From: Lachnospiraceae bacterium Phil5
GTDB lineage: Bacteria; Bacillota; Clostridia; TANB77; CAG-508
DNA: 64,000 bases
NCBI GenBank assembly: GCA_002633185.1
Contig: NWBM01000003.1
Span: forward strand, 100,107-164,106
Direction: 5' to 3'
Below, piece after piece: positions 7,241-63,142 of this stretch. The stretch's first letter is position 1; each line of letters opens with the position of its first letter. Below the pieces are notes generated by a model. The model had not been told where the DNA came from, searched no databases, and saw nothing but the letters and a program-made list of their open reading frames with translations. A program made the position numbers and the translations under genes.

Positions 7241-7294
7241 TTTAGTAGAGTTTTGGTGTAGATTTTTGGGAGGTGTCCCAAATTCTCTACTAAA
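7241..7294. repeat. REP-like element with palindromic ends (locus R2)
   Basis: TTTAGTAGAG (7241-7250) and CTCTACTAAA (7285-7294) are perfect inverted ends around GTAG (7258-7261) and the core GGAGGTGTCCC (7269-7279). It lies between a terminator and the NRPS promoter. Confidence 0.8.
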
Positions 7295-11688: not shown

Positions 11689-13710
11689 ATGAAAAAACAA
11701 AAGACACATAAAGAAGTAAAAAAATTTAAATTTAAATTTTATGCTTTGATATTTTTAGCTGACTTAATTGCTGTAGTAATTTCATATTATGTTATGCCTC
11801 TTGTTCAAAATTTTCCACCATATACAGAAGATTTCGCGTTTCAAGATGCAGTTCAAGTTTTAACACATGTTCAGCAATATACTGTTGCACTGGTATTTGG
11901 TGTAATATTACACGCTCTTTCATTTAAATTCTTAATGAAAGACATTTATAAATATTTAAATAAATTTTATAAAAAAGAACCTATTTCTTATGAGGAAGTA
12001 TTAAAGGTTAGAAAAGATTGTATAAATATTCCATACAAATTCTATGCATTTCAAATTATTCTATTATTTGGTGTTGGATTATTATTTAATTTTATAATGC
12101 TTGCTAACTTATTAAGCATAGTAAGATTTACACTTGCAATTCTTTCAATTGCTGCAATGCTTTCATTCTTATTACTTATAGTATCTCAAAAAATACTATA
12201 TAAAGTAATATTAACAACATATGAAGTCTATCCTAAATATGAAAAAAATACAGGGTACAGAATTACAAATTCTAAAAATATAATAATTCAAATGACTCCA
12301 ATTTTCGTTGTTGTATTAATAGTTATAACATTAATTGGATATTCAAAAGCTGTTACTCAAGAAGGATATGCATCAGCAAATTATTATAAAGCATATATTC
12401 AAACTAGGGAAATATCAAAATATGATGTTTCAATGGATAAATTGAAAAATATATTAAATACAATTCCATTAAAAACAGATAAAGATTACTATTTTATTAT
12501 TACTCCAGATGACAAAGAAATATATACATCAAATCCTAATGGAAAAGTAAGCTCATTTGCCTTATCTTATAGAGATTTCTTTGGTGATAGAACAGATGGA
12601 ATTTGGTATGAACAATTTGGTGTTGATGAGCAATTATTTAGTTATAAACTAGAAGATATTAATGGAAAAACATGGTATGTTGGATTCAAATACGAAACCG
12701 TTGATGCAAGCTTACTTACATATTATTCTGGAATTGTACTTTGTGTTACTATTCTATTTTCATACACATTATACTTCTCAACCAAAAATCTATCAAAAGA
12801 TGTTATTAAAATATCAACAAGCTTGAAAGAAATTTTAACAACTGGTAAAGGTCGCACTTTACCTATAACATCAAATGATGAGTTTGGTGACCTAGCATAT
12901 TATTACAACAAAATTCAGGAATTGAATGCTAGAAACATTGAAGAAATTCAAGACAATCAAGAGAAACTTATGGAAAAAGAACGTTTGGCTACACTTGGTC
13001 AAATGGTCGGCGGTATAGCACACAACTTAAAAACGCCTATAATGTCTATAGCAGGTGCTTGTGAAGGATTAGATGGATTAGTTAGAGAATATGATTCATC
13101 AATTGGAGATCCAGAGGTAACTGTAAATGACCATCACGAAATTGCTTCAGATATGAAAAATTGGATTGATAAAATTGAGACACATACAGAATATATGTCT
13201 GATATTATTACTGCAGTTAAAGGGCAAGTAGTTACTCTATCTAACCAAGAAGTAATTAATTTCACAATTGATGAATTAATAAAAAGAGTTAATATCTTAA
13301 TGAAACATGAACTTAAAAATTCATTAACTGATTTAAATATTGATATGAATAATGTAGACGCAAATTTAACTCTAAATGGAGATATAAACAGCTTAGTACA
13401 AGTATTAAATAACTTAATATCTAACGCAATTCAAAGCTATGACGGTCAAAAAAATAAACAAATTGATTTAGATTTTAATATGCAAAAAGGCAATTTAATA
13501 ATTTCAGTTAGAGATTATGGAAAGGGAATTTCAAAAGAAACTCAAGAAAAACTATTCAAGCAAATGGTTACAACCAAAGGAAAAAACGGCACAGGCCTTG
13601 GATTGTTTATGTCATACTCTAACATTAGAGCACATTTTAATGGTAATATTACATTCGAATCTGAACTTGGTAAGGGAAGTATTTTCCATGTAATTTTGCC
13701 TGTTAAGTAG
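11689..13710 (+). CDS. Multi-pass membrane sensor histidine kinase
   Basis: 673 residues with SD AAAGGAG and only 3 bases after the NRPS stop, so the two are co-transcribed. About six membrane segments (near 20-40, 60-80, 115-135, 140-165, 205-225 and 348-370), with an extracytoplasmic loop of about 120 residues between the last two. A HAMP-like linker follows, then the phospho-acceptor box GGIAHNLKTP (His445) and the ATPase domain (N box NNLISNA, GTGLGLFMS, GKGSIFHV). The loop is a plausible ligand sensor. The likely partner is the response regulator downstream. The TAG stop (13708-13710) is part of the GTAG of a REP pair. Confidence 0.9.
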   Translation: MKKQKTHKEVKKFKFKFYALIFLADLIAVVISYYVMPLVQNFPPYTEDFAFQDAVQVLTHVQQYTVALVFGVILHALSFKFLMKDIYKYLNKFYKKEPISYEEVLKVRKDCINIPYKFYAFQIILLFGVGLLFNFIMLANLLSIVRFTLAILSIAAMLSFLLLIVSQKILYKVILTTYEVYPKYEKNTGYRITNSKNIIIQMTPIFVVVLIVITLIGYSKAVTQEGYASANYYKAYIQTREISKYDVSMDKLKNILNTIPLKTDKDYYFIITPDDKEIYTSNPNGKVSSFALSYRDFFGDRTDGIWYEQFGVDEQLFSYKLEDINGKTWYVGFKYETVDASLLTYYSGIVLCVTILFSYTLYFSTKNLSKDVIKISTSLKEILTTGKGRTLPITSNDEFGDLAYYYNKIQELNARNIEEIQDNQEKLMEKERLATLGQMVGGIAHNLKTPIMSIAGACEGLDGLVREYDSSIGDPEVTVNDHHEIASDMKNWIDKIETHTEYMSDIITAVKGQVVTLSNQEVINFTIDELIKRVNILMKHELKNSLTDLNIDMNNVDANLTLNGDINSLVQVLNNLISNAIQSYDGQKNKQIDLDFNMQKGNLIISVRDYGKGISKETQEKLFKQMVTTKGKNGTGLGLFMSYSNIRAHFNGNITFESELGKGSIFHVILPVK

Positions 13711-13757
13711 TTTTTTGGGACACCTCCAATGTTTTTTGGAGGTGTCCCAAAAAATCT
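13707..13757. repeat. Compact REPIN pair (locus R3)
   Basis: GTAG (13707-13710) then TTTTTTGGGACACCTCCA, a 3-4 base centre, and the reverse copy with core GGAGGTGTCCC (13738-13748). The two arms would form a long hairpin. It carries the kinase stop codon at its left edge and the first base of the next promoter's -35 box at its right edge. Confidence 0.9.
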
Positions 13758-21849: not shown

Positions 21850-23888
21850 TATAATTCTATTTTGTTGTATTCATATTTTAGTTTGTTTAGAATTGTCTCT
21901 TCTCTGCTTGTGCAGGTTAGAATTATTATTTGTTTGTCGTAATAGTTGTCTATTAGGAATTTGAATATGTTTTCTAGTCTGTCGTCGTCGTAGAAGGCGA
22001 ATGATTCGTCTAATATTAATGGCATATTCTCTTCTGATATGTCCTTACACATTGATAATCTTAGAGATAAGTATAGTTGATCTATTGTTCCTAAGCTTAA
22101 TTTTTCTGCCGATACGTATTCTCCTGATGGTAGTTCTACCATTAATCCATTTTCGTCGTTAATTGAAACTTTGTTGTATTTTCCACTTGAAATATTTGAT
22201 ATGTTTTGTGATAGGTTGTTCGTGAATTTTGGTGTTACTGTATTTTTCATTTTTTCATATGCATTTTCTAAGGCTTGTTTTACTACTATCATTGCATTAT
22301 TTTTTTTCATTAAATCCTCGTACTCTTCTTCTGCTGTTATTATTTCTTCTTCAACTTTTGCTAAATCGTCAAGTTGTGGCATTATATTTTCTTTGTTTAA
22401 ATCTATTTTATGGATTTCTATTTTTCTATCATTTGTTTCTTGTTGTAGTTTTTCCAGCTTATATTCTAAGTTAGTCGTATCAAGCAATTCTATTAATTCA
22501 TTTTCTTCAATTTTGTCTTTGAATTCTTCTTTTATTTTTTGAATCTCGTTCTCTTTTAAATTCTTTATTTTGCTTTCTATTTCGCTTAATTTGTTTATTT
22601 CTTCATTTTTATTTTTTTCTAAAAGTTGAATTTGCGCATTTTTTGAATCAATTTCATTTATTAATTTTTTGTTTTTATCAAGCTCAATTAATATTTTATT
22701 TTCTTCAACACGATTGTTCATTTCTCTTTTATTTTTTTGTATTAAATCTTTTTCTTTTTTCTTATTATTTTCAATAAAATACATTAAAATTAATATTGGA
22801 AAAATTGCTAACCCTACGAATTTCAATATTTTATTTGGTACAAAAATAAATAATAAAATGTTTATTATTATTGCAATAATTCCAAGTATTATATATTTTT
22901 TAGTAGAGTTTTGGGGATGTTTTTTGGAGGTGTCCCCAAAAACATCTTCACGAAGTTTTCTTAGTTTGTTTTCGTTTCTTGCTATTAGTTCGAATAATTC
23001 ATCTTCTTCTTTGTAGTTGTTTTCTTTTAGTAATTGTTCTTTTTCAGTTTCTAGTTTGCTTATTTCTTCGTCTTTTCTGTCGATTAGTAGTTTATTGTAA
23101 TTTAATTTTGATGTTTCTTTTTGCTCTTCGTCAGTAATATTTTTTAATTTTTTTAATAATAATATTTTAGCTTCATCATTTTTTATTATTTCGTCGATAT
23201 TGCTCTTATTTTCCTCGAAATTGAATTTTTGATCTTTGTATGATAACAAGTTCATCTTTTTTGTTTTAAGGTCTTGTAGTTTATTCTGAACAATATTAAT
23301 AGGCTTTCCTTGGCTTCTATATGTTCCAATTTCATCTAATTGTTTTTTGTATAGTTTGTCCATTGCTTTGTTATATGAAACACTGTCTTCGCCTGTTCCT
23401 GCTATGTTAGCCATTTTCTGGACTAATACATTTTGTGAATTTTTTTCTAATTTTACTTCTTGTTGCATTGCTGCAATTGTTGATAAAAATGTTTGCTCAT
23501 CTACTTTTGTTTGTTCATAGAAAAATTGATTTCCTAAATTTTTATCAATAGAAAATTCTTTTGAGATGTCTTCCATATTGCTGTTATATATTTTAGGATT
23601 TTTCTTTCCGAATTCTCTATATACTTCAAATTGCTCGCCATTGTCTAATTCGTATTTTATTTTCCCAGAAAAATCTTCTTTTCCCCATGGCTTATATCTA
23701 TCATAGTCTGAATACTCTCTACCCTTTTTATTTTTAGATGTTCCATAAAAAATGTTAGTAATAAATTTTAATAAAGTAGATTTTCCAGATTCATTTTTTC
23801 CATATATTAAATTTATATTATCTGATAATTGTATTTCTTTGTTATCTAAATTACCAAATGAATTTATTTTTATGTCTTTTATCTTCAA
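21849..23888 (-). CDS. YhaN-like SMC/Rad50-type ATPase with a REP in frame
   Basis: I prefer TTG 23888 as start (SD AGAGGTG 7 bases upstream) over TTG 23921, which has none. About 679 residues: N-terminal ATPase half (Walker A YGKNESGKST), long coiled coils, a central two-helix membrane segment (about 330-370), more coiled coil, and the C-terminal half with LSLGTIDQLYLSLRLS signature and LPLILDESF Walker B. YhaN pairs with the YhaO nuclease encoded just upstream, as SbcC does with SbcD. A REP element (22903-22949) is translated as a 15-residue segment just before the membrane helices. Confidence 0.85.
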   Translation of the reverse strand: MKIKDIKINSFGNLDNKEIQLSDNINLIYGKNESGKSTLLKFITNIFYGTSKNKKGREYSDYDRYKPWGKEDFSGKIKYELDNGEQFEVYREFGKKNPKIYNSNMEDISKEFSIDKNLGNQFFYEQTKVDEQTFLSTIAAMQQEVKLEKNSQNVLVQKMANIAGTGEDSVSYNKAMDKLYKKQLDEIGTYRSQGKPINIVQNKLQDLKTKKMNLLSYKDQKFNFEENKSNIDEIIKNDEAKILLLKKLKNITDEEQKETSKLNYNKLLIDRKDEEISKLETEKEQLLKENNYKEEDELFELIARNENKLRKLREDVFGDTSKKHPQNSTKKYIILGIIAIIINILLFIFVPNKILKFVGLAIFPILILMYFIENNKKKEKDLIQKNKREMNNRVEENKILIELDKNKKLINEIDSKNAQIQLLEKNKNEEINKLSEIESKIKNLKENEIQKIKEEFKDKIEENELIELLDTTNLEYKLEKLQQETNDRKIEIHKIDLNKENIMPQLDDLAKVEEEIITAEEEYEDLMKKNNAMIVVKQALENAYEKMKNTVTPKFTNNLSQNISNISSGKYNKVSINDENGLMVELPSGEYVSAEKLSLGTIDQLYLSLRLSMCKDISEENMPLILDESFAFYDDDRLENIFKFLIDNYYDKQIIILTCTSREETILNKLKYEYNKIEL
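22903..22949. repeat. REP element inside the yhaN coding sequence (locus R4)
   Basis: It begins GTAG (22903-22906), and GATGTTTTTTGG pairs with CCAAAAACATC around the core (GGAGGTGTCCC 22927-22937). It keeps the yhaN frame open and is read as DVFGDTSKKHPQNST, between coiled coil and membrane helices. Confidence 0.9.
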
Positions 23889-30138: not shown

Positions 30139-30224
30139 GTAGATTTTTCGGGAAGATTTTTTGGGAGATTTTTTGGGACACCTCCAAAAAATCTTCCCGA
30201 AAAATCTTCAAAAAATATCCCTAT
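30139..30224. repeat. REPIN palindrome between ddl and murF (locus R5)
   Basis: GTAG (30139-30142) at one end and CTAT (30221-30224) at the other. Two perfect 24-base inverted arms (30141-30164 and 30184-30207) enclose a centre that holds the core GGGACACCTCC (30175-30185). The arms share the GATTTTTTGG repeats of other copies. The murF TAG stop is in the CTAT end. Confidence 0.9.
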
Positions 30225-31676: not shown

Positions 31677-31770
31677 GTGGATTTTTTGGGACACCTCCGA
31701 AAAACATCTTGGTTCGAAAAAAGTCAAAAAAAGAAAGATGTTTTTTGGAGGTGTCCCAAAAAATCTCCCA
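31677..31770. repeat. REPIN inverted pair (locus R6)
   Basis: Left arm starts GTGG (31677-31680), core GGGACACCTCC at 31688-31698; right arm core GGAGGTGTCCC at 31747-31757. The 25-base centre contains the GGTTCGAAAAAAGTC block that also borders loci R1 and R8. It lies upstream of murF and downstream of the SASP gene. Confidence 0.9.
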
Positions 31771-32167: not shown

Positions 32168-32206
32168 ATTTTGGAGGTGTCCCAAAAAATCTCCCAAAAA
32201 CTCTAC
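32168..32206. repeat. Single REP element (locus R7)
   Basis: Core GGAGGTGTCCC at 32173-32183, then AAAAAATCTCCCAAAAACTCTAC, ending CTAC (32203-32206). On the minus strand it begins GTAG 8 bases after the stop of the 317-residue membrane-protein gene. Confidence 0.85.
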
Positions 32207-33767: not shown

Positions 33768-33824
33768 GTTTTTTCGACTTTTTTCGATTCAAGATGTTTT
33801 TTGGAGGTGTCCCAAAAAATCTAC
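33768..33824. repeat. REP element with extended flank (locus R8)
   Basis: AAGATGTTTTTTGG then core (33803-33813) and CTAC at 33821-33824, preceded by the TTTTTTCGACTTTTTTCGA block seen at R1. The TAG stop of the next gene lies in the CTAC. Confidence 0.9.
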
Positions 33825-34384
33825 TGTTCCTCAAACTCTACTACTTTAGCAATCTTATCTGCGAACTTCATTTTTACATTTATTTTTCTGTAATTAACGT
33901 ATGTTACTTCTGCTTTTACAATTGTATATTCTTCATCAAATTCAATTCCTGTGAATTTTGCGGTTTTGTATTCTTCAAAGTTAATTACTTCTTTTGTATT
34001 GTTTGTTTTTTTGCTTAATTTTTTTAATTCTTCTGAATTGTGTATTCCGCATTTTTGAAAACCGGTTTTGTTGTTTAAATATGCGATTTTTAAGTCGTTT
34101 TCTGAGCTATTTATTGAAGAATATGCTACAGGTAATACACCTGTAACATATTCGTTTAAAACATCTATTATATCGGCTTTTGAAATGTTTCCTACATTGT
34201 ATGTTAATAGTTCTGAGTAGTTTTCTATTGAAAAACCATCTTGACTTCCCATATATTCTTCTGCAGTTGGACTTAATATGATATTTTTATTGTCATTATT
34301 CTTATTTAATAGTATGACTGTTGTGCATATTTCTATAATTATTATTAATATTATAATTATTAAAACTGTTTTATTTTTGTTCAC
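33821..34384 (-). CDS. Small membrane-anchored protein of the T4SS operon
   Basis: 187 residues starting at GTG 34384 (SD AAAGGTGGG). One N-terminal membrane helix (about 5-27), and an extracytoplasmic alpha/beta domain without a recognised family. It follows the giant hydrolase gene by 24 bases. Its TAG stop is inside REP R8. Confidence 0.6.
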   Translation of the reverse strand: MNKNKTVLIIIILIIIIEICTTVILLNKNNDNKNIILSPTAEEYMGSQDGFSIENYSELLTYNVGNISKADIIDVLNEYVTGVLPVAYSSINSSENDLKIAYLNNKTGFQKCGIHNSEELKKLSKKTNNTKEVINFEEYKTAKFTGIEFDEEYTIVKAEVTYVNYRKINVKMKFADKIAKVVEFEEQ

Positions 34385-50849: not shown

Positions 50850-50883
50850 GTAGATTTTTGGGGACACCTCCAAAAAACATCTA
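50850..50883. repeat. REP element (locus R9)
   Basis: GTAG (50850-50853) ATTTTTGG, core GGGACACCTCC (50861-50871), AAAAAACATCTA. Here the TAG stop of the VirB2-like gene (50881-50883) overlaps the non-GTAG end, opposite to most copies. Confidence 0.9.
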
Positions 50884-52597: not shown

Positions 52598-52631
52598 AAG
52601 ATGTTTTTGGGAGGTGTCCCAAAAAATCTAT
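52598..52631. repeat. REP element (locus R10)
   Basis: AAGATGTTTTTGGG, core GGAGGTGTCCC (52610-52620), AAAAAATCTAT. The ABC-F gene's TAG stop (52628-52630) lies in it. Confidence 0.9.
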
Positions 52632-54208
52632 TCAATTCCAAGGTACTCATTATATCCAACTTCTCTATCAACAACTCCACTTTGCTTAATATCAATAATT
52701 CTATTTGCAACTGTTTGCATTAATTGGTGGTCGTGCGATGTGAATATAATGTTTCCTATAAATTTCATCATTCCATTGTTTAAAGCTGTAATACTTTCCA
52801 TATCTAAGTGATTTGTTGGTTCGTCGAAGATTAAGAAGTTTGCGCCTGAAAGCATCATTTTTGCTAGAACACATCTTACTTTTTCTCCTCCAGATAGAAC
52901 TTTTACATTTTTTAAAGCTTCTTCTCCAGAGAAAAGCATTCTTCCTAAAAAGCTTCTAACATATGTTTCATCAGGATCTTTTGAATATGTTCTTAGCCAT
53001 TCTGTAATACTTTCATCTTCAGTAAATAAATAGTTGTTATCCTTAGGAAAATAAGTGTTTGAGATTGTTGTTCCCCATACTAATTCACCTTCATCTGGCT
53101 CAAGTTCACCTGCTATAATTTGGAACAATACAGTTTTTGCAATTTCGTTATCTGCTAAAACTGCAATTTTGTCTCCTTGTTTTACTGTGAATGAAACATT
53201 GTCTAATATTTTTTGTCCATTGATTGTTTTTGAAATGTTTTTTACTTGTAATATTTCTTTTCCAGGCTCTCTATCTGGCTTGAAATCTACATATGGATAT
53301 TTTCTGTTTGATGGTTTTATTTCATCTAACTCAATTTTTTCTAATGATTTCTTTCTTGATGTTGCTTGTTTAGATTTTGAAGCATTTGCACTAAATCTTG
53401 CAATGAATTCTTGTAATTCCTTAATTTTTTCTTCTTTCTTTTTATTAGCTTCTTTCATTTGTTTTAAAGCTAATTGGCTTGATTCATACCAGAAATCATA
53501 GTTTCCAGGATATACTTTAATTTTTCCGAAGTCTACATCAGCAATGTGTGTGCATACTTTATTTAGGAAATATCTATCGTGTGAAACTACAATTACAGTA
53601 TTTTCAAAATTTATTAAGAATTCTTCTAACCATGATATGCTTTTTAAATCTAAGTCGTTTGTAGGCTCGTCTAATAGTAATATATCAGGATTTCCGAATA
53701 ATGCTTGAGCTAGTAATACTTTAACTTTTTCTTTTCCCTCAAGCTCACTCATTAATTTATAATGATTTTCTGTGTCTATTCCTAAGTTATTTAAAAGCAC
53801 TGCTGCATCAGATTCAGCATTCCATCCATCTAATTCGGCAAATCTTTCTTCTAATTTAGCAGCTTTCATTCCGTCCTCTTCTGAGAAATCTGGCTTCATA
53901 TATATTTCATTTTTTTCTTTCATGATATTGTAAAGCTCTTGATTTCCCATTATTACAGTATCTAGAACTGTGTATTCTTCATAGGCAAAGTGGTCTTGTT
54001 TTAACACTGAAAGTCTTTCTGTTTTTTCCTTAGTAACCTCGCCTTTGCTTGGTTCTAACTCTCCAGATAAAACCTTTAAGAAAGTTGATTTTCCAGCACC
54101 ATTTGCTCCTATAATACCATAACAGCATCCTTTATTAAACTTTATATTTACATCTTCAAAAAGCGTTCTTTTTCCAAATCTTACAGTTACGCCTACTGCA
54201 TTTAACAT
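52628..54208 (-). CDS. ABC-F family ATPase
   Basis: 526 residues, SD AAGGAGG. Two ABC domains: the first has Walker A GANGAGKST and DEPTNDLDL with a degenerate signature (SELEGKEK); the second has LSGGEKVR and DEPTNHLDM but a degenerate P-loop (ADNEIAKT). A basic linker joins them. There are no membrane helices. ABC-F proteins act on the ribosome. The pattern resembles YkpA/YbiT more than resistance types. Confidence 0.9.
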   Translation of the reverse strand: MLNAVGVTVRFGKRTLFEDVNIKFNKGCCYGIIGANGAGKSTFLKVLSGELEPSKGEVTKEKTERLSVLKQDHFAYEEYTVLDTVIMGNQELYNIMKEKNEIYMKPDFSEEDGMKAAKLEERFAELDGWNAESDAAVLLNNLGIDTENHYKLMSELEGKEKVKVLLAQALFGNPDILLLDEPTNDLDLKSISWLEEFLINFENTVIVVSHDRYFLNKVCTHIADVDFGKIKVYPGNYDFWYESSQLALKQMKEANKKKEEKIKELQEFIARFSANASKSKQATSRKKSLEKIELDEIKPSNRKYPYVDFKPDREPGKEILQVKNISKTINGQKILDNVSFTVKQGDKIAVLADNEIAKTVLFQIIAGELEPDEGELVWGTTISNTYFPKDNNYLFTEDESITEWLRTYSKDPDETYVRSFLGRMLFSGEEALKNVKVLSGGEKVRCVLAKMMLSGANFLIFDEPTNHLDMESITALNNGMMKFIGNIIFTSHDHQLMQTVANRIIDIKQSGVVDREVGYNEYLGIE

Positions 54209-55157: not shown

Positions 55158-55203
55158 TAGATGTTTTTTGGAGGTGTCCCAAAAACTCTACCCAAAACTC
55201 TAT
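55158..55203. repeat. REP element with doubled GTAG end (locus R11)
   Basis: TAGATGTTTTTT, core GGAGGTGTCCC (55170-55180), AAAAACTCTAC (CTAC 55188-55191), then CCAAAACTCTAT. The AGAGTTTTGGG unit is repeated, so the GTAG end is doubled. The TAG stop of the surface-protein gene lies in the last CTAT. Confidence 0.9.
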
Positions 55204-58200
55204 TGATAATATGTAACGTAGTATGTATCTCCTCCAATTACTTCTGTGTCGTCAACTCTTGTAGAGCCTGATTCTGTATTTGCTACTGTTCCATTAATTG
55301 AGCTATTTATACCTTTTACTATTCCATCATAGAAGTTGAATGTTCCTGTGTTATAGTTAAATACACCGTCTGTATATGCTTGTACTGATGGTGATGTTGC
55401 ATCTATTCCTCCTCCTGATTCTCCTAATATAAGTGTTGATGATTGTTGATTTACTATTCCAGGTCCTGTATTTGATGTTATTGTTGCTCCAGTAATTATA
55501 AGTGTTCCTCCTGCATTTTGAACAGCACCTCTTAGATGGTGATCCCATTCTCCTGCGTTATTAGCGCTTATTACTGTTGATCCTGAAATTATAATTGTTC
55601 CTCTTGCATAATTGTAAACTGCTTGTTTTTCACCTGATCCAGTTTGTGTAACTGTTGCATTATGTATAGTTAATGTTCCTCCATCATTGTTTATACTTGA
55701 TTGTGTTGATGATGATGTTACAGTTCCGTTTGTTACTAGTAATGTACCATAATTTTCAATTGCCGAAGGTCTCTTTTCTGTATTCGTCATTTTTGATCCA
55801 TTATTAGATAATGTGTAACCATTTAAATCTAATATAATATTTTGATTTGCAAATATATCTGTAGATTCTAGTGTATTATTTAATAATGTAATTGTTGTTT
55901 GAGTATTGTCTCTTGGGACATCATTTATTGCGTCTTGTAATGATGCATAATTAATTGCTCCAATTGATGCTACTGCACTTGATATCCAATGTGCATATAA
56001 ATCTACATCTCCAGTTATAACATCGCCTTCTCTAACTTGTGTTCCATTGTTTGGATCTGTGAACCATCCAGTAAAGTAATAATTTGGTCTTGTTGGTACA
56101 GGTAATGCTGTTAATGCAGTTCCAGGTGTTACTTCCCTTTCTGCTTCAGTTACACTACCTAAATTTGCATCAAATGTTACAATATATTTTAAAGGATTCC
56201 AATGTGCATAATATGTAACATCTGCTGTTATTTGTGTACTTGCTGATATTTGTGTTCCAGTATTATCTTCAGTTGTGAACCATCCAACAAATTCATTATT
56301 TGTTTTTGTCGCTGTTGGTAAACTTCCAACTTGACTTCCTACATTTACTGTTCTTGTTTGTTCCTCTGGATTTCCTCCAGGTGCAAGGAATGTTACTAAT
56401 GCTTCAGTTTGTGTCCAATGTGCATAATATGTTGTATGGCCATTAACAGTTGTAGTAGTTGTAACTTGTGTTCCACCTTCAGCTGCTGTATACCAACCAT
56501 CCAATGTACAACGTGCTTTTGTTGCTGTTGGTAATGTTCCTACTGGATCACCTGGTTCTAAATGTTTATATTCAAATTCTGGTGTTCCACCTCTTGCATC
56601 AAATGTTACTTTTGCAGGTGCATCTAAAAATGCTGTGCGATATGTATCTCCATTTATTTGTTCTGTTGAATGATCTAATGTTGAATTACTATCAATTGTA
56701 TCTATATAATTTTCATCATTAAATGCACTTGTTTTTCCTTTTACAATTCCATCATAGAATTCTAATGTTCCAGCTGTTGTTGTTGTAACACCATTTGTAT
56801 AACCTTGAATTACTGGTGAATCTGTATGTACTTCTGCATCATCAGTACCAATTATAAGTGTTCCTTTGTTATCTACACCTTTACCTGTTTCAGATATTAT
56901 TGTTCCTCCTGTTATTTGAATTGTTCCGGTATCTATATTTTCTACTGCAGAATAATTTGCTGAAGTAATTGTTCCTCCTGAAATTATTATTGTTCCTGCA
57001 GTTCCATTATTTGGTTTAGCATTTTGTACTGTTGCTCTTTCTGTAGTTGTTGCACTTAATTGTGAATCTCCTGTTATTTCCATTGTTCCACCAAGATTGT
57101 ATACCGCCTGTCTAGATCCTGTTGCTGTAATGATTACATTATCAATTTTTACATTTCCAGTTGCATTATTATTTATTACACCTGCTTTAGCACCTGATGT
57201 AAGTGTTCCATTCCTTACTTCTAATGTACCATCATTTTCAAAAGTACTTGCACTTGATGTATTAGATGCAGTATTGGTAATTGTATGTCTTTGCAAGTTT
57301 AGTATTATGTTCTTTGTGCTTGCTATAGTAATTTTAGAACTAATACTTGTATTTTTTAACAACTTGATTGTTGTTTGCTCTCCATTTGTATGTACTGCAG
57401 CAAATGCTGCACTTAATGTTGTATATTTTTGATTACCTATTTGTGCTACATACAATTCATCTTCCCATTGTGCATATAAATCTACATATCCTCCATTTAT
57501 TGTAGTTAAATTGTTAACACTTTCTTCATCTTCGTAACTTGTTCCTAATCCATCTGGCTCTGTATTCCATTCTGTAAATGAATATTCATCTTTTTGGAAA
57601 TCATTTGGTGTTAATGTTGCAGCTGTTCCATATGTCATTTGTTGATTATTCATTGTTCCAGTTCCACCATTTGAATTGAATCTTATGTAATATGTGTTTG
57701 GTATATAGTTTGCAGTGTATGTTCTATCTCCTGTGCTACCTTGTTGTATTGTTACAGTTGTATTTGTGTCACCTGTTAAATCTGTACCAGACCAGCCTTT
57801 GAATGTATATCCATCTTTTGTTGGATTATTTAATGTAATTGCTGATGTTTGCATATTGTATGTTGTTGGATTGCTTGTTGCAACTGTTCCACCATCTAAA
57901 TTGTATGTTATGTTGTAAGTTGCTAATTCCCATTGTGCATATAGTATTACTGTTGAGCCTGCTGTATTAGTTAAATTACTTACCAATTCACCATCATTAT
58001 AATTATTTCCACTTCCATTTGCTGCTGTATTCCAGCCATTGAATGTATATCCTGTTTTTGTAAAACTGTTTGATGTTAAATTGCTCGATACTCCCATTGT
58101 CATTGTTTGATCATTCATTAATCCTGTACCTGTATTAGCATCAAAATGCACAGTGTAAGTTTGGGCAATTGAAAAATTATTTATAATTGTCGCATTTGAC

Positions 58201-58334
58201 GTGAAATATGAAAGGATTCCGCTTATATTATTTAATGCAAGCAAAATAAGCAAAATGACACTTATTATCATTCTGCTAGCACTATTCATTTTAACTTTTC
58301 CGTTATAATGTTTTGCTTCGTATCTTTTGTGCAT
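55200..58334 (-). CDS. Surface protein: SipW-type signal, InlB-like repeats, beta-helix
   Basis: Start ATG 58334 matches the paralogue's MHKRY; a TTG at 58340 is better spaced from GGAGG and cannot be excluded. About 1044 residues. The N-terminal part has a basic stretch and helix then SGILSYFTSNATIINNFSIA, the SipW-dependent (TasA/camelysin) signal pattern. Then at least six Listeria-Bacteroides repeats of about 45-70 residues (FDANTGTG...GWNTAANG...LYAQWE) in two clusters, alternating with two right-handed beta-helix blocks (ISGGTI, NNGTL). No sortase motif. Probably a matrix or adhesion protein. The TAG stop lies in REP R11. Confidence 0.8.
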   Translation of the reverse strand: MHKRYEAKHYNGKVKMNSASRMIISVILLILLALNNISGILSYFTSNATIINNFSIAQTYTVHFDANTGTGLMNDQTMTMGVSSNLTSNSFTKTGYTFNGWNTAANGSGNNYNDGELVSNLTNTAGSTVILYAQWELATYNITYNLDGGTVATSNPTTYNMQTSAITLNNPTKDGYTFKGWSGTDLTGDTNTTVTIQQGSTGDRTYTANYIPNTYYIRFNSNGGTGTMNNQQMTYGTAATLTPNDFQKDEYSFTEWNTEPDGLGTSYEDEESVNNLTTINGGYVDLYAQWEDELYVAQIGNQKYTTLSAAFAAVHTNGEQTTIKLLKNTSISSKITIASTKNIILNLQRHTITNTASNTSSASTFENDGTLEVRNGTLTSGAKAGVINNNATGNVKIDNVIITATGSRQAVYNLGGTMEITGDSQLSATTTERATVQNAKPNNGTAGTIIISGGTITSANYSAVENIDTGTIQITGGTIISETGKGVDNKGTLIIGTDDAEVHTDSPVIQGYTNGVTTTTAGTLEFYDGIVKGKTSAFNDENYIDTIDSNSTLDHSTEQINGDTYRTAFLDAPAKVTFDARGGTPEFEYKHLEPGDPVGTLPTATKARCTLDGWYTAAEGGTQVTTTTTVNGHTTYYAHWTQTEALVTFLAPGGNPEEQTRTVNVGSQVGSLPTATKTNNEFVGWFTTEDNTGTQISASTQITADVTYYAHWNPLKYIVTFDANLGSVTEAEREVTPGTALTALPVPTRPNYYFTGWFTDPNNGTQVREGDVITGDVDLYAHWISSAVASIGAINYASLQDAINDVPRDNTQTTITLLNNTLESTDIFANQNIILDLNGYTLSNNGSKMTNTEKRPSAIENYGTLLVTNGTVTSSSTQSSINNDGGTLTIHNATVTQTGSGEKQAVYNYARGTIIISGSTVISANNAGEWDHHLRGAVQNAGGTLIITGATITSNTGPGIVNQQSSTLILGESGGGIDATSPSVQAYTDGVFNYNTGTFNFYDGIVKGINSSINGTVANTESGSTRVDDTEVIGGDTYYVTYYQ

Positions 58335-58499
58335 TGGCAATTATAAGCCTCCTTTCTTTTTTTTTATATTTACGTTTTTTGTTTTTCTATATATATATTA
58401 TTTATATTTTATTGTTTCTATACTTATACTATAACTCTTATATTTTATAGATTTCAAATTACAATTTTATAATATTTTCAAACTAAATTTTATAGATAT

Positions 58500-58560: not shown

Positions 58561-58625
58561 GTAGAGTTTTTGAGATTTTTGGGGAGATTTTTGGGATTTT
58601 TTGGGACACCTCCAAAAAACATCTT
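58561..58625. repeat. REP element flanking the RAYT (locus R12)
   Basis: GTAGAGTTTTTGAG, then several GATTTTTGGG units, core GGGACACCTCC (58603-58613) and AAAAAACATC. It follows the RAYT gene with its non-GTAG side toward the gene. Confidence 0.9.
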
Positions 58626-58636
58626 CAATTTTCAAT

Positions 58637-59398
58637 TCAAACTTTCAGTTTATCCATAGTTCCGTAAGAGATTTGAAAAAATTTTCTAATATTAACATAA
58701 GAAATATTGCATTCATATTTCAAATACTTTATTAATTTTTTTAGAGTTTCTCTTTCACTTAAAATATCTTGTAATTTTACTTTGTTAATTTCTATAAATT
58801 CTTTAACGCCATTTAATATATACTCTTTTGCTTCCATAAATGTTGGTCTTTCAACATCCATAAACATTTTTCCTCCATCTTTTTCGAATATTCTTAAATA
58901 ATCACTGCTTTCACCAAATATTTGCTTTAAAATATCACTTTGGGCAATACCTTTATTCAATTTGTAATCATTATAAGATGAATACTTATAATCTTCACAT
59001 TTCGAAACCATCTTAGCTTTTACTGGATTTTGATGTATGTAATTAATGCAATTAGCTAAGTGCTTCTGGCTATAAATTGGTTCTATTTGAAATCGATTTC
59101 TGAAGAGTACGCCACATCTTCCGTGCTCTTTGTTATACATGCGAGCGTATTTTGAATTAACCTTGTACATGAACTCGCTTAACTGTTTGATATCTTCTGT
59201 ATGTATTGCAAAATGAGAATGATTGCTCATTATACAATATGCTAAAATATCCAAGTCGAAATCTGGATAAATTTCTTGCATGATTTTCATATAGCTTTCA
59301 ATACAATGATTATCATTGAAAATAAATTCCTTGTTAACTCCTTGAACCATTACATGCAAAAATGATGTAGTTAAATTTTTACGTGCTAATCTTGGCAT
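58637..59398 (-). CDS. REP-associated tyrosine transposase (RAYT), IS200/Y1 family
   Basis: 253 residues, SD AAAAGGAG. The Y1 HUH nuclease domain is complete: HVMVQGVNKE, the HUH motif in SNHSHFAIH, MYKVNSKYARMYN, HGRCGVLFRNRF and the catalytic Tyr in CINYIHQNPVKA. The C-terminal part (about 200-253, LKKLIKYLKYECNISYVNIRKFF) looks like a helix-turn-helix extension found in Firmicute RAYTs. RAYTs cut single-stranded DNA at GTAG-hairpin REP sequences. It is flanked by inverted REPs. It may still be active, as no disrupted motif is visible. Confidence 0.92.
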   Translation of the reverse strand: MPRLARKNLTTSFLHVMVQGVNKEFIFNDNHCIESYMKIMQEIYPDFDLDILAYCIMSNHSHFAIHTEDIKQLSEFMYKVNSKYARMYNKEHGRCGVLFRNRFQIEPIYSQKHLANCINYIHQNPVKAKMVSKCEDYKYSSYNDYKLNKGIAQSDILKQIFGESSDYLRIFEKDGGKMFMDVERPTFMEAKEYILNGVKEFIEINKVKLQDILSERETLKKLIKYLKYECNISYVNIRKFFQISYGTMDKLKV

Positions 59399-59429
59399 AA
59401 TAAATCACTCCTTTTTTATATTTTGACGA

Positions 59430-59476
59430 AAATAGGGGCAAGTTATAATTTTTGTAATTATAACTTACCCCTATTT
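59430..59476. other. Long hairpin just upstream of the RAYT
   Basis: A 20-bp stem with one mismatch: AAATAGGGG/CCCCTATTT and AAGTTATAATT/AATTATAACTT. It lies 31 bases before the RAYT start and inside the RAYT unit. It could shield the transposase from read-through or hold its SD. Confidence 0.75.
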
Positions 59477-59510
59477 CTTTATGAGCTTATATTAGCTTTG
59501 ATTTTTTGTC

Positions 59511-59547
59511 AAGATGTTTTTTGGAGGTGTCCCAAAAAATCTCCTAC
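59511..59547. repeat. REP element flanking the RAYT (locus R13)
   Basis: AAGATGTTTTTTGG, core GGAGGTGTCCC (59523-59533), AAAAAATCTCCTAC. The TAG stop of the second InlB-repeat gene lies in the CTAC (59544-59547). Confidence 0.92.
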
Positions 59548-62500
59548 TGATAATATGTTACATGATATGTTTGTCCTCCAATTGTTTCTGTTGTATCTAC
59601 TCTTGTTGCTCCTGTTTCTGTATCAGATACTGTTCCGTCAATTGAACCGGTTTTTCCTTTTATTATACCATCATAAATATTTAATATTCCACCTGATTTG
59701 TTTTGTATACCGTATGTATATGCTTGTATTGATGGTGTTATTGAGTCTATTGTTCCATCTTTTGTTCCTATTGTAACTGTATTTGAATAATTGTTGTTAT
59801 CTGTTGATTGGTTAACGATTCCAGGACCTGTTAATGATTCTATTGTTCCTCCTGTAATAATTAAGGTTCCAACTCTATTTCCTGTATTCAAGTTTTGAAT
59901 TACTCCTCTATTATTACCATTATACGCTCCACTATTTTTTGCTGTTATATATGCTGTTCCAGATATTTCTACTGTTCCACCATTGTTATAAATAGCTTGT
60001 TTGTTTTTCTTATCACCAGTTCCGGTTTGGATAATATTTCCTCCTGTTATTATCAACCTTCCTCCTGGATCATTATTTATTGTTGATGATTTTGTATCTG
60101 CCGTTATTGTTCCATTTGATATTCTAAGTGTTCCTTTATTTCTTATTGCCACCTGTTCTTCGCCTACAACTTTAGTTCCATCATTAAATAATGTATAGTT
60201 CTGTAAATTTAATACAATATTTTTATTTGCTGCAATGTCGATGGCTTCTATAATATCTGATAATACTGTTATTGTTGTTTCTGTATTATTTGTTGGCACA
60301 GCATTAACTGCAGCTTGTAATGTTGGATATTTTACATCACCTATTTGTGCAACTGAACTATCTATCCAATGTGCATAATATGTCTCATTTTGTGTTATTA
60401 CTTCTGTTCCATCAATTATTGTTCCTCCATTTGGATCTGTAAACCATCCAGCAAATCCATAATCTGTTCTTGTTGGAACAGGTAATGATTCAAGTACATC
60501 TCCTGCTGAAATATGTCTAGTTATTTCTGTATCACTTACATTACCTATGTATCCTCCATTTGCATTAAATGTTACATCTACAGGTATTGAATTCCAATGT
60601 GCATAGTATGTTGTATCATGTGTTATAGTTTCTGTTCCATCAATTTGTGTTCCATTAGTTGGATCTGTAAACCATCCGGCAAATGTTTTGTATTGCTTTG
60701 TTACTGTTGGCAATGATTGAACTCTTGATCCTACATTAACAATTTCTGTAGTTTCTGCTGGAGTTCCTCCATTTGCATTAAATTTAACTTCTGCTTCTGT
60801 TTGAGTCCAATGTGCGTAGAATGTTGTTGCTGCTGTAATAACTTCTGTTGCATCAATTTGTGTTCCATTAGTTGGATCTGTAAACCATCCATCAAGTGAA
60901 TGACGAGGTCTTGTTGCTGTTGGTAAGCTACCGACTGGAGCATTAACATCAACAAGTCTTACAGTCTCTGATGTAGTTCCACCATTTGCATCAAATCTAA
61001 CTTGAACTTTTGCTGAATGTAAATATGCTGTTTGATATGTTTCATTATCAATATCTTCTGTTGAATGAGCTATTTCATATTCATCTTCAATTTCTGTTAC
61101 ATAATTTTCATTATTAAATGCATTTGTTTTTCCTTTAACAATTCCATCATAAAATTCTACTGGTGCTGAGCTTGTTGTTTTTACACCATATGTTGCACCT
61201 TGGATTACTGGCGATGTTATATCAACACCTCCGCCTTCTTCTCCTATAATAAGTGTTCCTTTGTTGTCAACACCTTGTGCATTATTAGAAGTTACTGTTC
61301 CACCTGTAATAATTACTGTTCCAGTTGCTGCATTTTCAATTACACCTCTTGTTGTTGTAGCCGTTGAAATAATTTGTCCACCTGAAATAGTAATTGTACC
61401 AGCCGTTCCATTATCTGGTTTATTGTTTTGAATTGTAGCTCTATCTGATGCACTTGAACTTAAATATGTATCTCCTGTTATTATTACATCTCCACCATTA
61501 TTGTAAATTGTTTGTCTCTCACCTGTTGTTATAATTCTACCTCCACTTACAATTAATGTTCCTGTTGCATTGTTATCTATTGCTCCATAAGCTGCAGTTG
61601 ATGTTATTGTTCCATTTGTAAATTCCATTGTTCCATTATTTTTTATAACATTTCGATTACCTGTATTGCTTAAAGTAAAGTGTTGAAAATCGAATACTAT
61701 ATTTTGATTTTCTGCTACAGTAAGTGTACCTGGCAAAGTGATATTTCTTAATAATTTGATTGTTCTTTGAACTCCATCTGCCGGAACTGCCGCTATTGCT
61801 GCTGATAATGATGAATATTTTTTATCTCCTACTACTTCAGCTACATTTGTTTCATCTTCCCATTGTGCATATAAATCGACTATTGCTCCGTTTGTTGTGG
61901 CTAAATTCGCAACACTAACTCCATCTGAGAAATGTTGTCCTGTTCCATCTGCTGAAGTAGTCCATTCTGTAAATACATATGCTGGTTTTGTATAATCATT
62001 TTGTGTTAGATGTGCAGTTGTATCATATGTCATTTCTTGATTTGACATTGAACCTGTTCCACCATTTGCGTTGAATCTTATGTAATATGTAATTGGTGTG
62101 TAGTTTGCTGTATAAGCTCTATCTCCAGTACTTCCTTGTGGTATTGTTACTGTTAAGTTTGTGTTTCCTGTTAGATCTGTTCCTGACCATCCTATAAATG
62201 TGTATCCTGTTTTTGTTGGATTGTTTAATGTAAATGTTGCTGTTTCTTCTGTATATGTTGCTGGATTGCTTGTAGAAACTGTTCCACCATTTAATGTATA
62301 TGTTATATTGTATCCATTTGGTTGCCATTGTGCATATAGTGTTACTGTTGATCCGGCTACATTTGTTAAATTGCTTACTAATTCCTCATCATCGTAGCTA
62401 TCACCACTTCCATTGGCTGCTGTATTCCATCCATTGAATGTATTTCCTGCTTTTGTAAAGCTATTTTGATTTAAATTTGCTGATACTCCCATTATCATTC

Positions 62501-62729
62501 TTTGATCATTCATTGAGCCTGTACCAGTATTAGCATCAAAATGCACAGTGTACATCGGAGCAATTGTGAACTCATTTGTAATTGTTGCATATGATGTGAA
62601 ATAAGAAAGGATACCGCTTATACAATTCAATGCAAGCATAATAAGCAAAATGACAGTTGTATTCATTTTGCCGATATTGTTGAATTTTATTTTACCGTTG
62701 AAGTGCTTTGCTTTATATCTTTTGTGCAT
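59544..62729 (-). CDS. Surface protein, tandem paralogue with InlB-like repeats
   Basis: 1061 residues, ATG 62729 with AAAGGAGG. Same architecture and mostly alignable sequence as the gene at 55200: MHKRYKAKHFNGK, SipW-type SGILSYFTSYATITNEFTIA, repeats ending LYAQWQ, AHWT, AHWN, AHWI, beta-helix blocks (ISGGQI, ITGGTV) and the same C-terminal THVTYYQ-type end. No wall anchor. Separated from its paralogue by the RAYT unit. Stop TAG lies in REP R13. Confidence 0.8.
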   Translation of the reverse strand: MHKRYKAKHFNGKIKFNNIGKMNTTVILLIMLALNCISGILSYFTSYATITNEFTIAPMYTVHFDANTGTGSMNDQRMIMGVSANLNQNSFTKAGNTFNGWNTAANGSGDSYDDEELVSNLTNVAGSTVTLYAQWQPNGYNITYTLNGGTVSTSNPATYTEETATFTLNNPTKTGYTFIGWSGTDLTGNTNLTVTIPQGSTGDRAYTANYTPITYYIRFNANGGTGSMSNQEMTYDTTAHLTQNDYTKPAYVFTEWTTSADGTGQHFSDGVSVANLATTNGAIVDLYAQWEDETNVAEVVGDKKYSSLSAAIAAVPADGVQRTIKLLRNITLPGTLTVAENQNIVFDFQHFTLSNTGNRNVIKNNGTMEFTNGTITSTAAYGAIDNNATGTLIVSGGRIITTGERQTIYNNGGDVIITGDTYLSSSASDRATIQNNKPDNGTAGTITISGGQIISTATTTRGVIENAATGTVIITGGTVTSNNAQGVDNKGTLIIGEEGGGVDITSPVIQGATYGVKTTSSAPVEFYDGIVKGKTNAFNNENYVTEIEDEYEIAHSTEDIDNETYQTAYLHSAKVQVRFDANGGTTSETVRLVDVNAPVGSLPTATRPRHSLDGWFTDPTNGTQIDATEVITAATTFYAHWTQTEAEVKFNANGGTPAETTEIVNVGSRVQSLPTVTKQYKTFAGWFTDPTNGTQIDGTETITHDTTYYAHWNSIPVDVTFNANGGYIGNVSDTEITRHISAGDVLESLPVPTRTDYGFAGWFTDPNGGTIIDGTEVITQNETYYAHWIDSSVAQIGDVKYPTLQAAVNAVPTNNTETTITVLSDIIEAIDIAANKNIVLNLQNYTLFNDGTKVVGEEQVAIRNKGTLRISNGTITADTKSSTINNDPGGRLIITGGNIIQTGTGDKKNKQAIYNNGGTVEISGTAYITAKNSGAYNGNNRGVIQNLNTGNRVGTLIITGGTIESLTGPGIVNQSTDNNNYSNTVTIGTKDGTIDSITPSIQAYTYGIQNKSGGILNIYDGIIKGKTGSIDGTVSDTETGATRVDTTETIGGQTYHVTYYQ

Positions 62730-62995: not shown

Positions 62996-63142
62996 GTAGA
63001 GTTTTAAAAAACATATTAATACTTCGTTTGTTTGCTGGCGATTAGCTTTTTGGAAAGACATTTTTGTAGAACGCCAAACTGCGCACACACTGCGTATTAA
63101 TATGTTTTAGGATATTTTTTGGAGGTGTCCCAAAAACTCTAC
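62996..63142. repeat. Composite REPIN with long inner hairpins (locus R14)
   Basis: GTAGAGTTTT (62996-63005) and AAAACTCTAC (63133-63142) are inverted ends. Inside, AAAACATATTAATAC (63008-63022) pairs with GTATTAATATGTTTT (63094-63108), and a further GGCG/CGCC helix encloses a GC-richer centre. Only the right arm has the core (63121-63131). It lies between ypeB and the surface-protein gene. Confidence 0.8.

Follow-up and report, generated by a model that had tools for sequence, protein, structure and literature searches.

A single-copy Y1 transposase and its probable cognate family of terminal hairpins in a small clostridial genome

The stretch of 64,000 nt analyzed here (the window) belongs to a genome assembly of 1.045 Mb that is 77% complete (G000). 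It carries a gene for a Y1/HUH single-strand DNA transposase of 253 aa, placed between terminal inverted repeats (TIRs) and preceded by a hairpin in its leader:

58595–58625, + strand: terminal inverted repeat on the gene's downstream side (core 58603–58613), 31 nt, 100% complementary to 59511–59541
58637–59398, − strand: transposase gene, putative TIRYT (Pfam Y1_Tnp, single match in the genome, AlphaFold model)
59430–59476, − strand: hairpin of 21 bp within the transposase gene's leader (inverted repeat, 95% complementary, 5-nt loop)
59511–59541, − strand: terminal inverted repeat on the gene's upstream side (core 59523–59533), perfect partner of 58595–58625

The initial annotation had described a Y1 transposase with HUH and Tyr motifs enclosed by inverted repeat copies, and this description was borne out by the perfect 31-bp TIRs and by the Y1_Tnp match of the protein (E 7.5e-12). 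Tandem GAGATTTTTGG-like units and a GTAG precede the TIR at 58595–58625. The sequence of the TIR is TGGGACAC, which lacks one G relative to GGGGWSAS, a motif described for some but not all TIRYT TIRs (PMC3733652). The hairpin at 59430–59476 could possibly control the expression of the transposase gene. On either side of the unit lie genes for two large surface-type proteins that are paralogues and contain Listeria-Bacteroides (Flg_new) repeats (55200–58340 and 59544–62729), both of which finish at a repeat copy with an identical TYYQ-TAG. An Rfam scan of the window returned two tRNAs only.

The HUH-type motif of the protein is NHSH, its middle S being mostly A or V in relatives, the Tyr motif is YIHQNP, and H15, N59, H60, H62, G96, R102, Y120, N124, and P125 are invariant across 60 relatives. 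A protein search together with PF01797 detected this single Y1 transposase in G000. The AlphaFold model (pLDDT 89.7) has as its best PDB match the E. coli TnpAREP with a DNA hairpin (4er8; Z 17.0 over 153 residues, rmsd 2.8), while IS608 TnpA was matched with Z of about 10. The C-terminal helices of the model (209–251) fall outside the 4er8 match. The C-terminus of the window protein itself has no Pfam HTH match; a putative HTH is suggested by these helices and by the relatives, where HTH_23 was found in 10/27 and HTH_28 in 8/27. The protein carries RFQIEPI and YIHQNP, i.e., an F-Q variant and Y[IV]xxNP, and the position of the W that reads GTAG (W94-Q95) is occupied by F here and by F or Y in the relatives. 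In subclasses 2.2, 2.4, 2.5, and 2.7, this W is used to read GTAG (PMC6006769). The best NCBIfam model is REP_Tyr_transpos (NF047646), with 67.3 bits against a cut-off of 80.

The core of the repeat, GGGACACCTCC, is present in the window as 17 exact copies, which reproduces the initial count and compares with about 0.001 expected from composition, while no one-mismatch variants were found there. Apart from the two copies in the TIRs, the exact core search placed them as follows:

571–698: inverted pair (571–581 +, 688–698 −)
7269–7279, − strand: single core
13717–13748: inverted pair (13717–13727 +, 13738–13748 −), directly 3' of the stop of a histidine kinase gene at 13710
22926–22936, − strand: core in frame within an ORF
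30175–30185, + strand: single palindromic copy
31688–31757: inverted pair (31688–31698 +, 31747–31757 −)
32173–32183, − strand: single core
33803–33813, − strand: single core where ORF 33821–34384 stops with TAG
50861–50871, + strand: single core, with GGGGACAC
52610–52620, − strand: single core directly 3' of the TAG that ends an ABC-F gene (52628–54208), where relatives have the empty site
55170–55180, − strand: single core where ORF 55200–58340 stops with TAG
63121–63131, − strand: single core adjoining an element of another repeat family (family C, see below)

At 22926–22936 the host ORF is unbroken and a short peptide has apparently been added. Inverted pairs that resemble non-autonomous derivatives of the unit had been proposed for several loci elsewhere; besides the gene unit, only 571/698, 13717/13748, and 31688/31757 are such pairs below 130 bp in the window, and in at least one case (30175) a proposed pair proved to be one palindromic copy.

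In G000, whose sequence context was read as stretches around the repeat copies, 120 exact cores and 14 with one mismatch were counted, against 0 and 2 for the reversed control, so that 118 copies lie beyond the two of the transposase unit. The repeats are thus real, given 17 copies in the window and 120 in the genome versus 0.001 expected and none in the reversed control, and the proposal of a short hairpin repeat family with a single cognate Y1 gene was upheld. The density of about one per 4 kb stated initially holds for the window (one per 3.8 kb) and not for the genome (one per 8.7 kb), a difference of about twofold.

The consensus of the 120 copies is GTAGATTTTTT-GGGACACCTCC-AAAAAACATCTT, with conservation fading beyond about −12 to +23; the 100% conservation of the core in this collection is partly selection, as the copies were gathered by the exact core, and only 14 one-mismatch copies exist. 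The GTAG end in the initial annotation corresponds to the majority letters at −11 to −8 (per-position frequency 0.62/0.52/0.81/0.74) and is no constant tag: exact GTAGA stands at the expected place in 36/120 copies, and a GTAG lies within 40 nt of the core in 59/120 copies versus 16/120 in a control stretch. As a single strand, the monomer folds into a hairpin TTTTTTGG/CCAAAAAA with the loop GACACCT, and no T-tract follows downstream. The architecture varies between copies, some being perfectly palindromic, with an outer-type sequence in each arm, and others having the CATC arm on the inner side, while in several the outer arm is repeated as units of 12–13 nt. The exact 31-mer of the gene-unit TIR is shared by 20/120 genomic copies, and GGGGACAC is present in 14/120 as well as in the TIRs of two homologues (L032, L033). 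Among neighboring core pairs closer than 400 nt, 25/29 are in the head-in inverted orientation, and 26 inverted pairs (52 copies, core-to-core distance 31–237 nt, with the gene unit in addition) were recognized in G000. An exact 21-mer of the repeat had no match in 84,980 species genomes, a set that may omit records close to G000, and a literature search with the loop sequence GGGGACGGTTC returned no relevant paper.

Homologues of the transposase were found in 25/56 genomes of the same order and occur in MAGs named Clostridia, in agreement with the low-GC Firmicute host assumed initially; the related genes are diverged and low-copy. A repeat absent elsewhere in the genome, or equally numerous in RAYT-less relatives, would have refuted the initial annotation, which withstood this test: next to the 120 copies in G000, GGGACACCTCC was found in 0/56 relatives, and the two nearest homologues have different cores of their own. 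The G006 homologue (55% identity) is bracketed by GGGACACTGAC, present there in about 70 copies with many pairs 38–39 nt apart, and the G029 homologue (51% identity) by GGGACACCTAC, with about 18 copies and pairs 43–49 nt apart. Neither GGGACACTGAC nor GGGACACCTAC was found in G000, and the GTAG foot is absent from the cognate repeats of both relatives. In three genomes, each transposase is matched to its own amplified core, and the inverted pairs in G000, together with the spacing of mostly 38–39 nt in G006, constitute a REPIN-like organization.

A wider set of 76 related genes in named genomes (mostly Clostridia, with other phyla too) has a GGGAC-anchored flanking inverted repeat in 51 cases, versus 5 with the reversed motif, and the commonest loop among these TIRs is GGGGACGGTTCT. 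Across 75 TIRYT loci, the pairing score was 5.48 for stems with their own arm versus 3.01 for swapped arms (sd 0.14, maximum 3.55 in 500 swaps); the TIRs are hairpins in which the loop is conserved and the stem varies in a compensated manner. The excess of GGGGACRS over the reversed control has a median of 3.6 in genomes with a TIRYT and 1.2 in those without (p 2e-4), with 6/25 TIRYT-bearing relatives lacking the excess and six TIRYT-less ones showing it, some of the genomes being incomplete. In Mantel comparisons with protein distance, loop (r 0.17) and stem (r 0.09–0.20) both track weakly, and loop reading is therefore not singled out by co-divergence. Whether pairs inserted into pre-existing hairpins was asked by scoring outer arms as locus-specific palindromes, with a strong result in G029 (12.5 vs 2.7), a weak one in G006 (9.7 vs 7.0), and no significance in G000 (7.6 vs 6.9, shuffle sd 0.49). 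Three pairs in G029 (L208, L212, L216) are flanked by perfect locus-specific outer inverted repeats of 13–20 bp, and L212 without its insert would resemble a terminator, i.e., a hairpin and then a run of T's.

Stop codons are directly adjoined by many of the copies. Where continuous stretches were read, the stop is TAG in 14/20 genes that end at an element versus 21/83 others (p 0.0004). Considering all copies, the upstream stops on the same strand lie mainly at −10 (15 TAG), −22/−23 (13 TAG), and −35 relative to the core, positions that equal the TAG place of the repeat plus its 12–13-nt multiples. Comparison with orthologues of three genes, i.e., the ABC-F ATPase (GIE*), RimM (LLEGLV*), and a sigma factor (KRIYK*), revealed unchanged C-termini, with the element starting at the stop codon in each. 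For instance, at rimM the empty site in G005 reads TTAGTATAG joined to GAAAGGAATG, while G000 has TTAGTATAG followed by ATTTTTGGGGACACC...AAAA and then GAAAGGAG. At each of the three junctions, TAG is present in one or more close relatives that lack the element, so that TAG may be the target instead of the repeat's end, as these three loci suggest. TAG at none, one, or both ends of pairs (10/13/3) equals independence, and these counts thus do not separate element end from target. In G006, the stop of rimM is immediately followed by a related hairpin, TGTTTTTGGGGACACCGGTGAAAAACATCA (L279), which shares its junction with the copy in G000, by independent or shared insertion.

Taken together, the best interpretation of the unit is a TIRYT/TIRtron whose TIR family has expanded, and its protein features and the GGGAC motif place it in TnpAY1 subclass 2.1 or a close neighbor. 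The initial annotation was thus right about the kind of system and wrong about the family: its assignment to the RAYT/REP groups with GTAG in Proteobacteria had to be abandoned given F/Y in place of W, a score below the NCBI cut-off, an unconserved GTAG, and a GGGAC motif that is that of TIRYT TIRs. Y1 genes flanked by TIRs with the GGGGWSAS motif and moderately abundant TIR families were described as TIRYT/TIRtron by Di Nocera et al. 2013 (PMC3733652), and the present unit resembles them in having a Y1 gene within TIRs unrelated to GTAG REPs, a motif close to that type (one G short in the window TIR), and TIR families with dimers. It differs in its 120 TIRs in 1.04 Mb, which is large for the genome, in the hairpin form of its TIRs (conserved loop, compensated stem), in its Clostridia host, and in the many copies that abut stops. 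Quentin et al. 2018 (PMC6006769) placed most TIRYTs in subclass 2.1, a subclass that has C-terminal HTH domains and corresponds to RAYT group 1 in Bertels et al. 2017, and they found no REP-like sequences beside its genes. The length of about 240–250 aa, the F-Q variant of the W motif, and Y-I-H-x-N-P agree with this subclass, as does an HTH_23/HTH_28-like C-terminus in some of the relatives, whereas the hairpins with genome-wide families do not. Proteobacterial RAYT/REP systems and REPINs (PMC3116915, PMC8266576) share the single-copy Y1 gene, cognate palindromic repeats, spaced inverted pairs, and a mostly intergenic location; here, however, the constant part is the loop, there is no constant GTAG foot, and the protein belongs to another subclass. 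As far as the literature was compared, the hairpin architecture demonstrated by covariation, the strict match of transposase and core, the REPIN-like pairs, and the stop-codon junctions appear to be new.

We consider it highly probable that this is a TIRtron with a single-copy TIRYT whose cognate terminal hairpin has multiplied into about 120 REP/REPIN-like copies. When single-stranded (e.g., on the lagging-strand template), the repeat would form a hairpin that exposes GGGACACCTCC at the tip; the loop would be recognized by TIRYT, perhaps with the help of the C-terminal domain, and Tyr120 would cleave at the HUH metal site. Either the complete gene-bearing unit or, much more frequently, hairpins and inverted pairs on their own would then be moved or copied, and new copies would end up downstream of genes, abutting stops that are often TAG. 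The sequences themselves show the gene, the repeats, the correspondence of each core to its genome and transposase, the covarying hairpin, and the stop-codon junctions, and from these we infer binding, cleavage, copying, and the choice of strand and target by TIRYT. Since contact with the loop is known in IS608, ISDra2, and some TnpAREP (PMC8266576), loop reading is plausible here by analogy.

A canonical RAYT with GTAG REPs, whose GTAG foot would be the guide read by the transposase, could be argued from the consensus GTAG, its enrichment near cores, and the best PDB and NCBIfam matches (E. coli TnpAREP, REP_Tyr_transpos). We judge it improbable, as exact GTAGA is limited to 36/120 copies, the foot is missing from the cognate repeats of G006 and G029, the guide-region W is replaced by F/Y, the model score (67 bits) stays below 80, and the loop motif agrees with TIRYT TIRs. 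Canonical GTAG RAYT identity was rejected on these motif, residue, and cut-off tests. Even less credit is given to the hairpins being host elements (terminator-like or regulatory) between two of which the transposase landed by chance. Their position at gene ends, their folding as single strands, and known insertion sequences that target REPs (e.g., ISPpu9, PMC8450116) would fit such an origin, but the TIRYTs of the nearest relatives are each bracketed by the repeat of their own genome with differing cores, GGGAC-anchored TIRs recur at 51/76 wider loci, a T-tract is missing after the hairpin, and the core occurs in 0/56 relatives.

An ordinary IS200/IS605 insertion sequence with MITE derivatives seems the least probable of all. 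The Y1_Tnp domain, terminal hairpins, and non-autonomous pairs speak for it, and the HUH-Tyr fold is shared with IS608 and ISDra2; however, G000 has one gene copy and no multicopy IS, the genes of relatives are diverged and low-copy, Y---NP stands in place of Y---Q, an extra C-terminal region is present, and no TnpB was found among the ORFs neighboring the transposase. IS608 and ISDra2 insert 3' of a short target motif (TTAC in IS608), and TAG may play that role for the TIRYT unit. A bolder reading, possible though rather unlikely, would be that the repeats prefer TAG stops as their chromosomal target, that the element is a near-neutral gene-end inserter, and that the whole TIRYT branch reads the loop and not a foot tetranucleotide.

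Although little studied, the subclass 2.1/TIRYT branch ranks second in size among these transposases. It was reported to be devoid of REP-like repeats, yet it has them here, in Clostridia with small AT-rich genomes, and one rule extends over 75 loci, the loop being constant and the stem free yet compensated. The three genomes with three cognate cores offer ready pairs for studying how the protein chooses its hairpin. Should the enzyme itself direct insertion to stop codons at gene ends, the tolerance of a compact genome for more than 100 insertions would be explained.

Two other repeat families were noticed in G000. A second TIR-type family, GGGGACGGGGACAAAATG, for which no second Y1 gene was found in the G000 assembly, forms inverted pairs nested in GGGACACCTCC pairs (C1:48600–48756, C1:73049–73192, and C3:169232–169366 of G000). 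Family C, an element of about 100 bp (TAATACTTCGTTTGTTTGCTGGCGATT...CGCCAAACTGCGC...GTATTA), has 9 copies in G000 (L235–L243; at about 63020–63120 in the window), several of them inside GGGACACCTCC pairs and others enclosed by inverted repeats specific to the locus, which gives the impression of insertion into hairpins.
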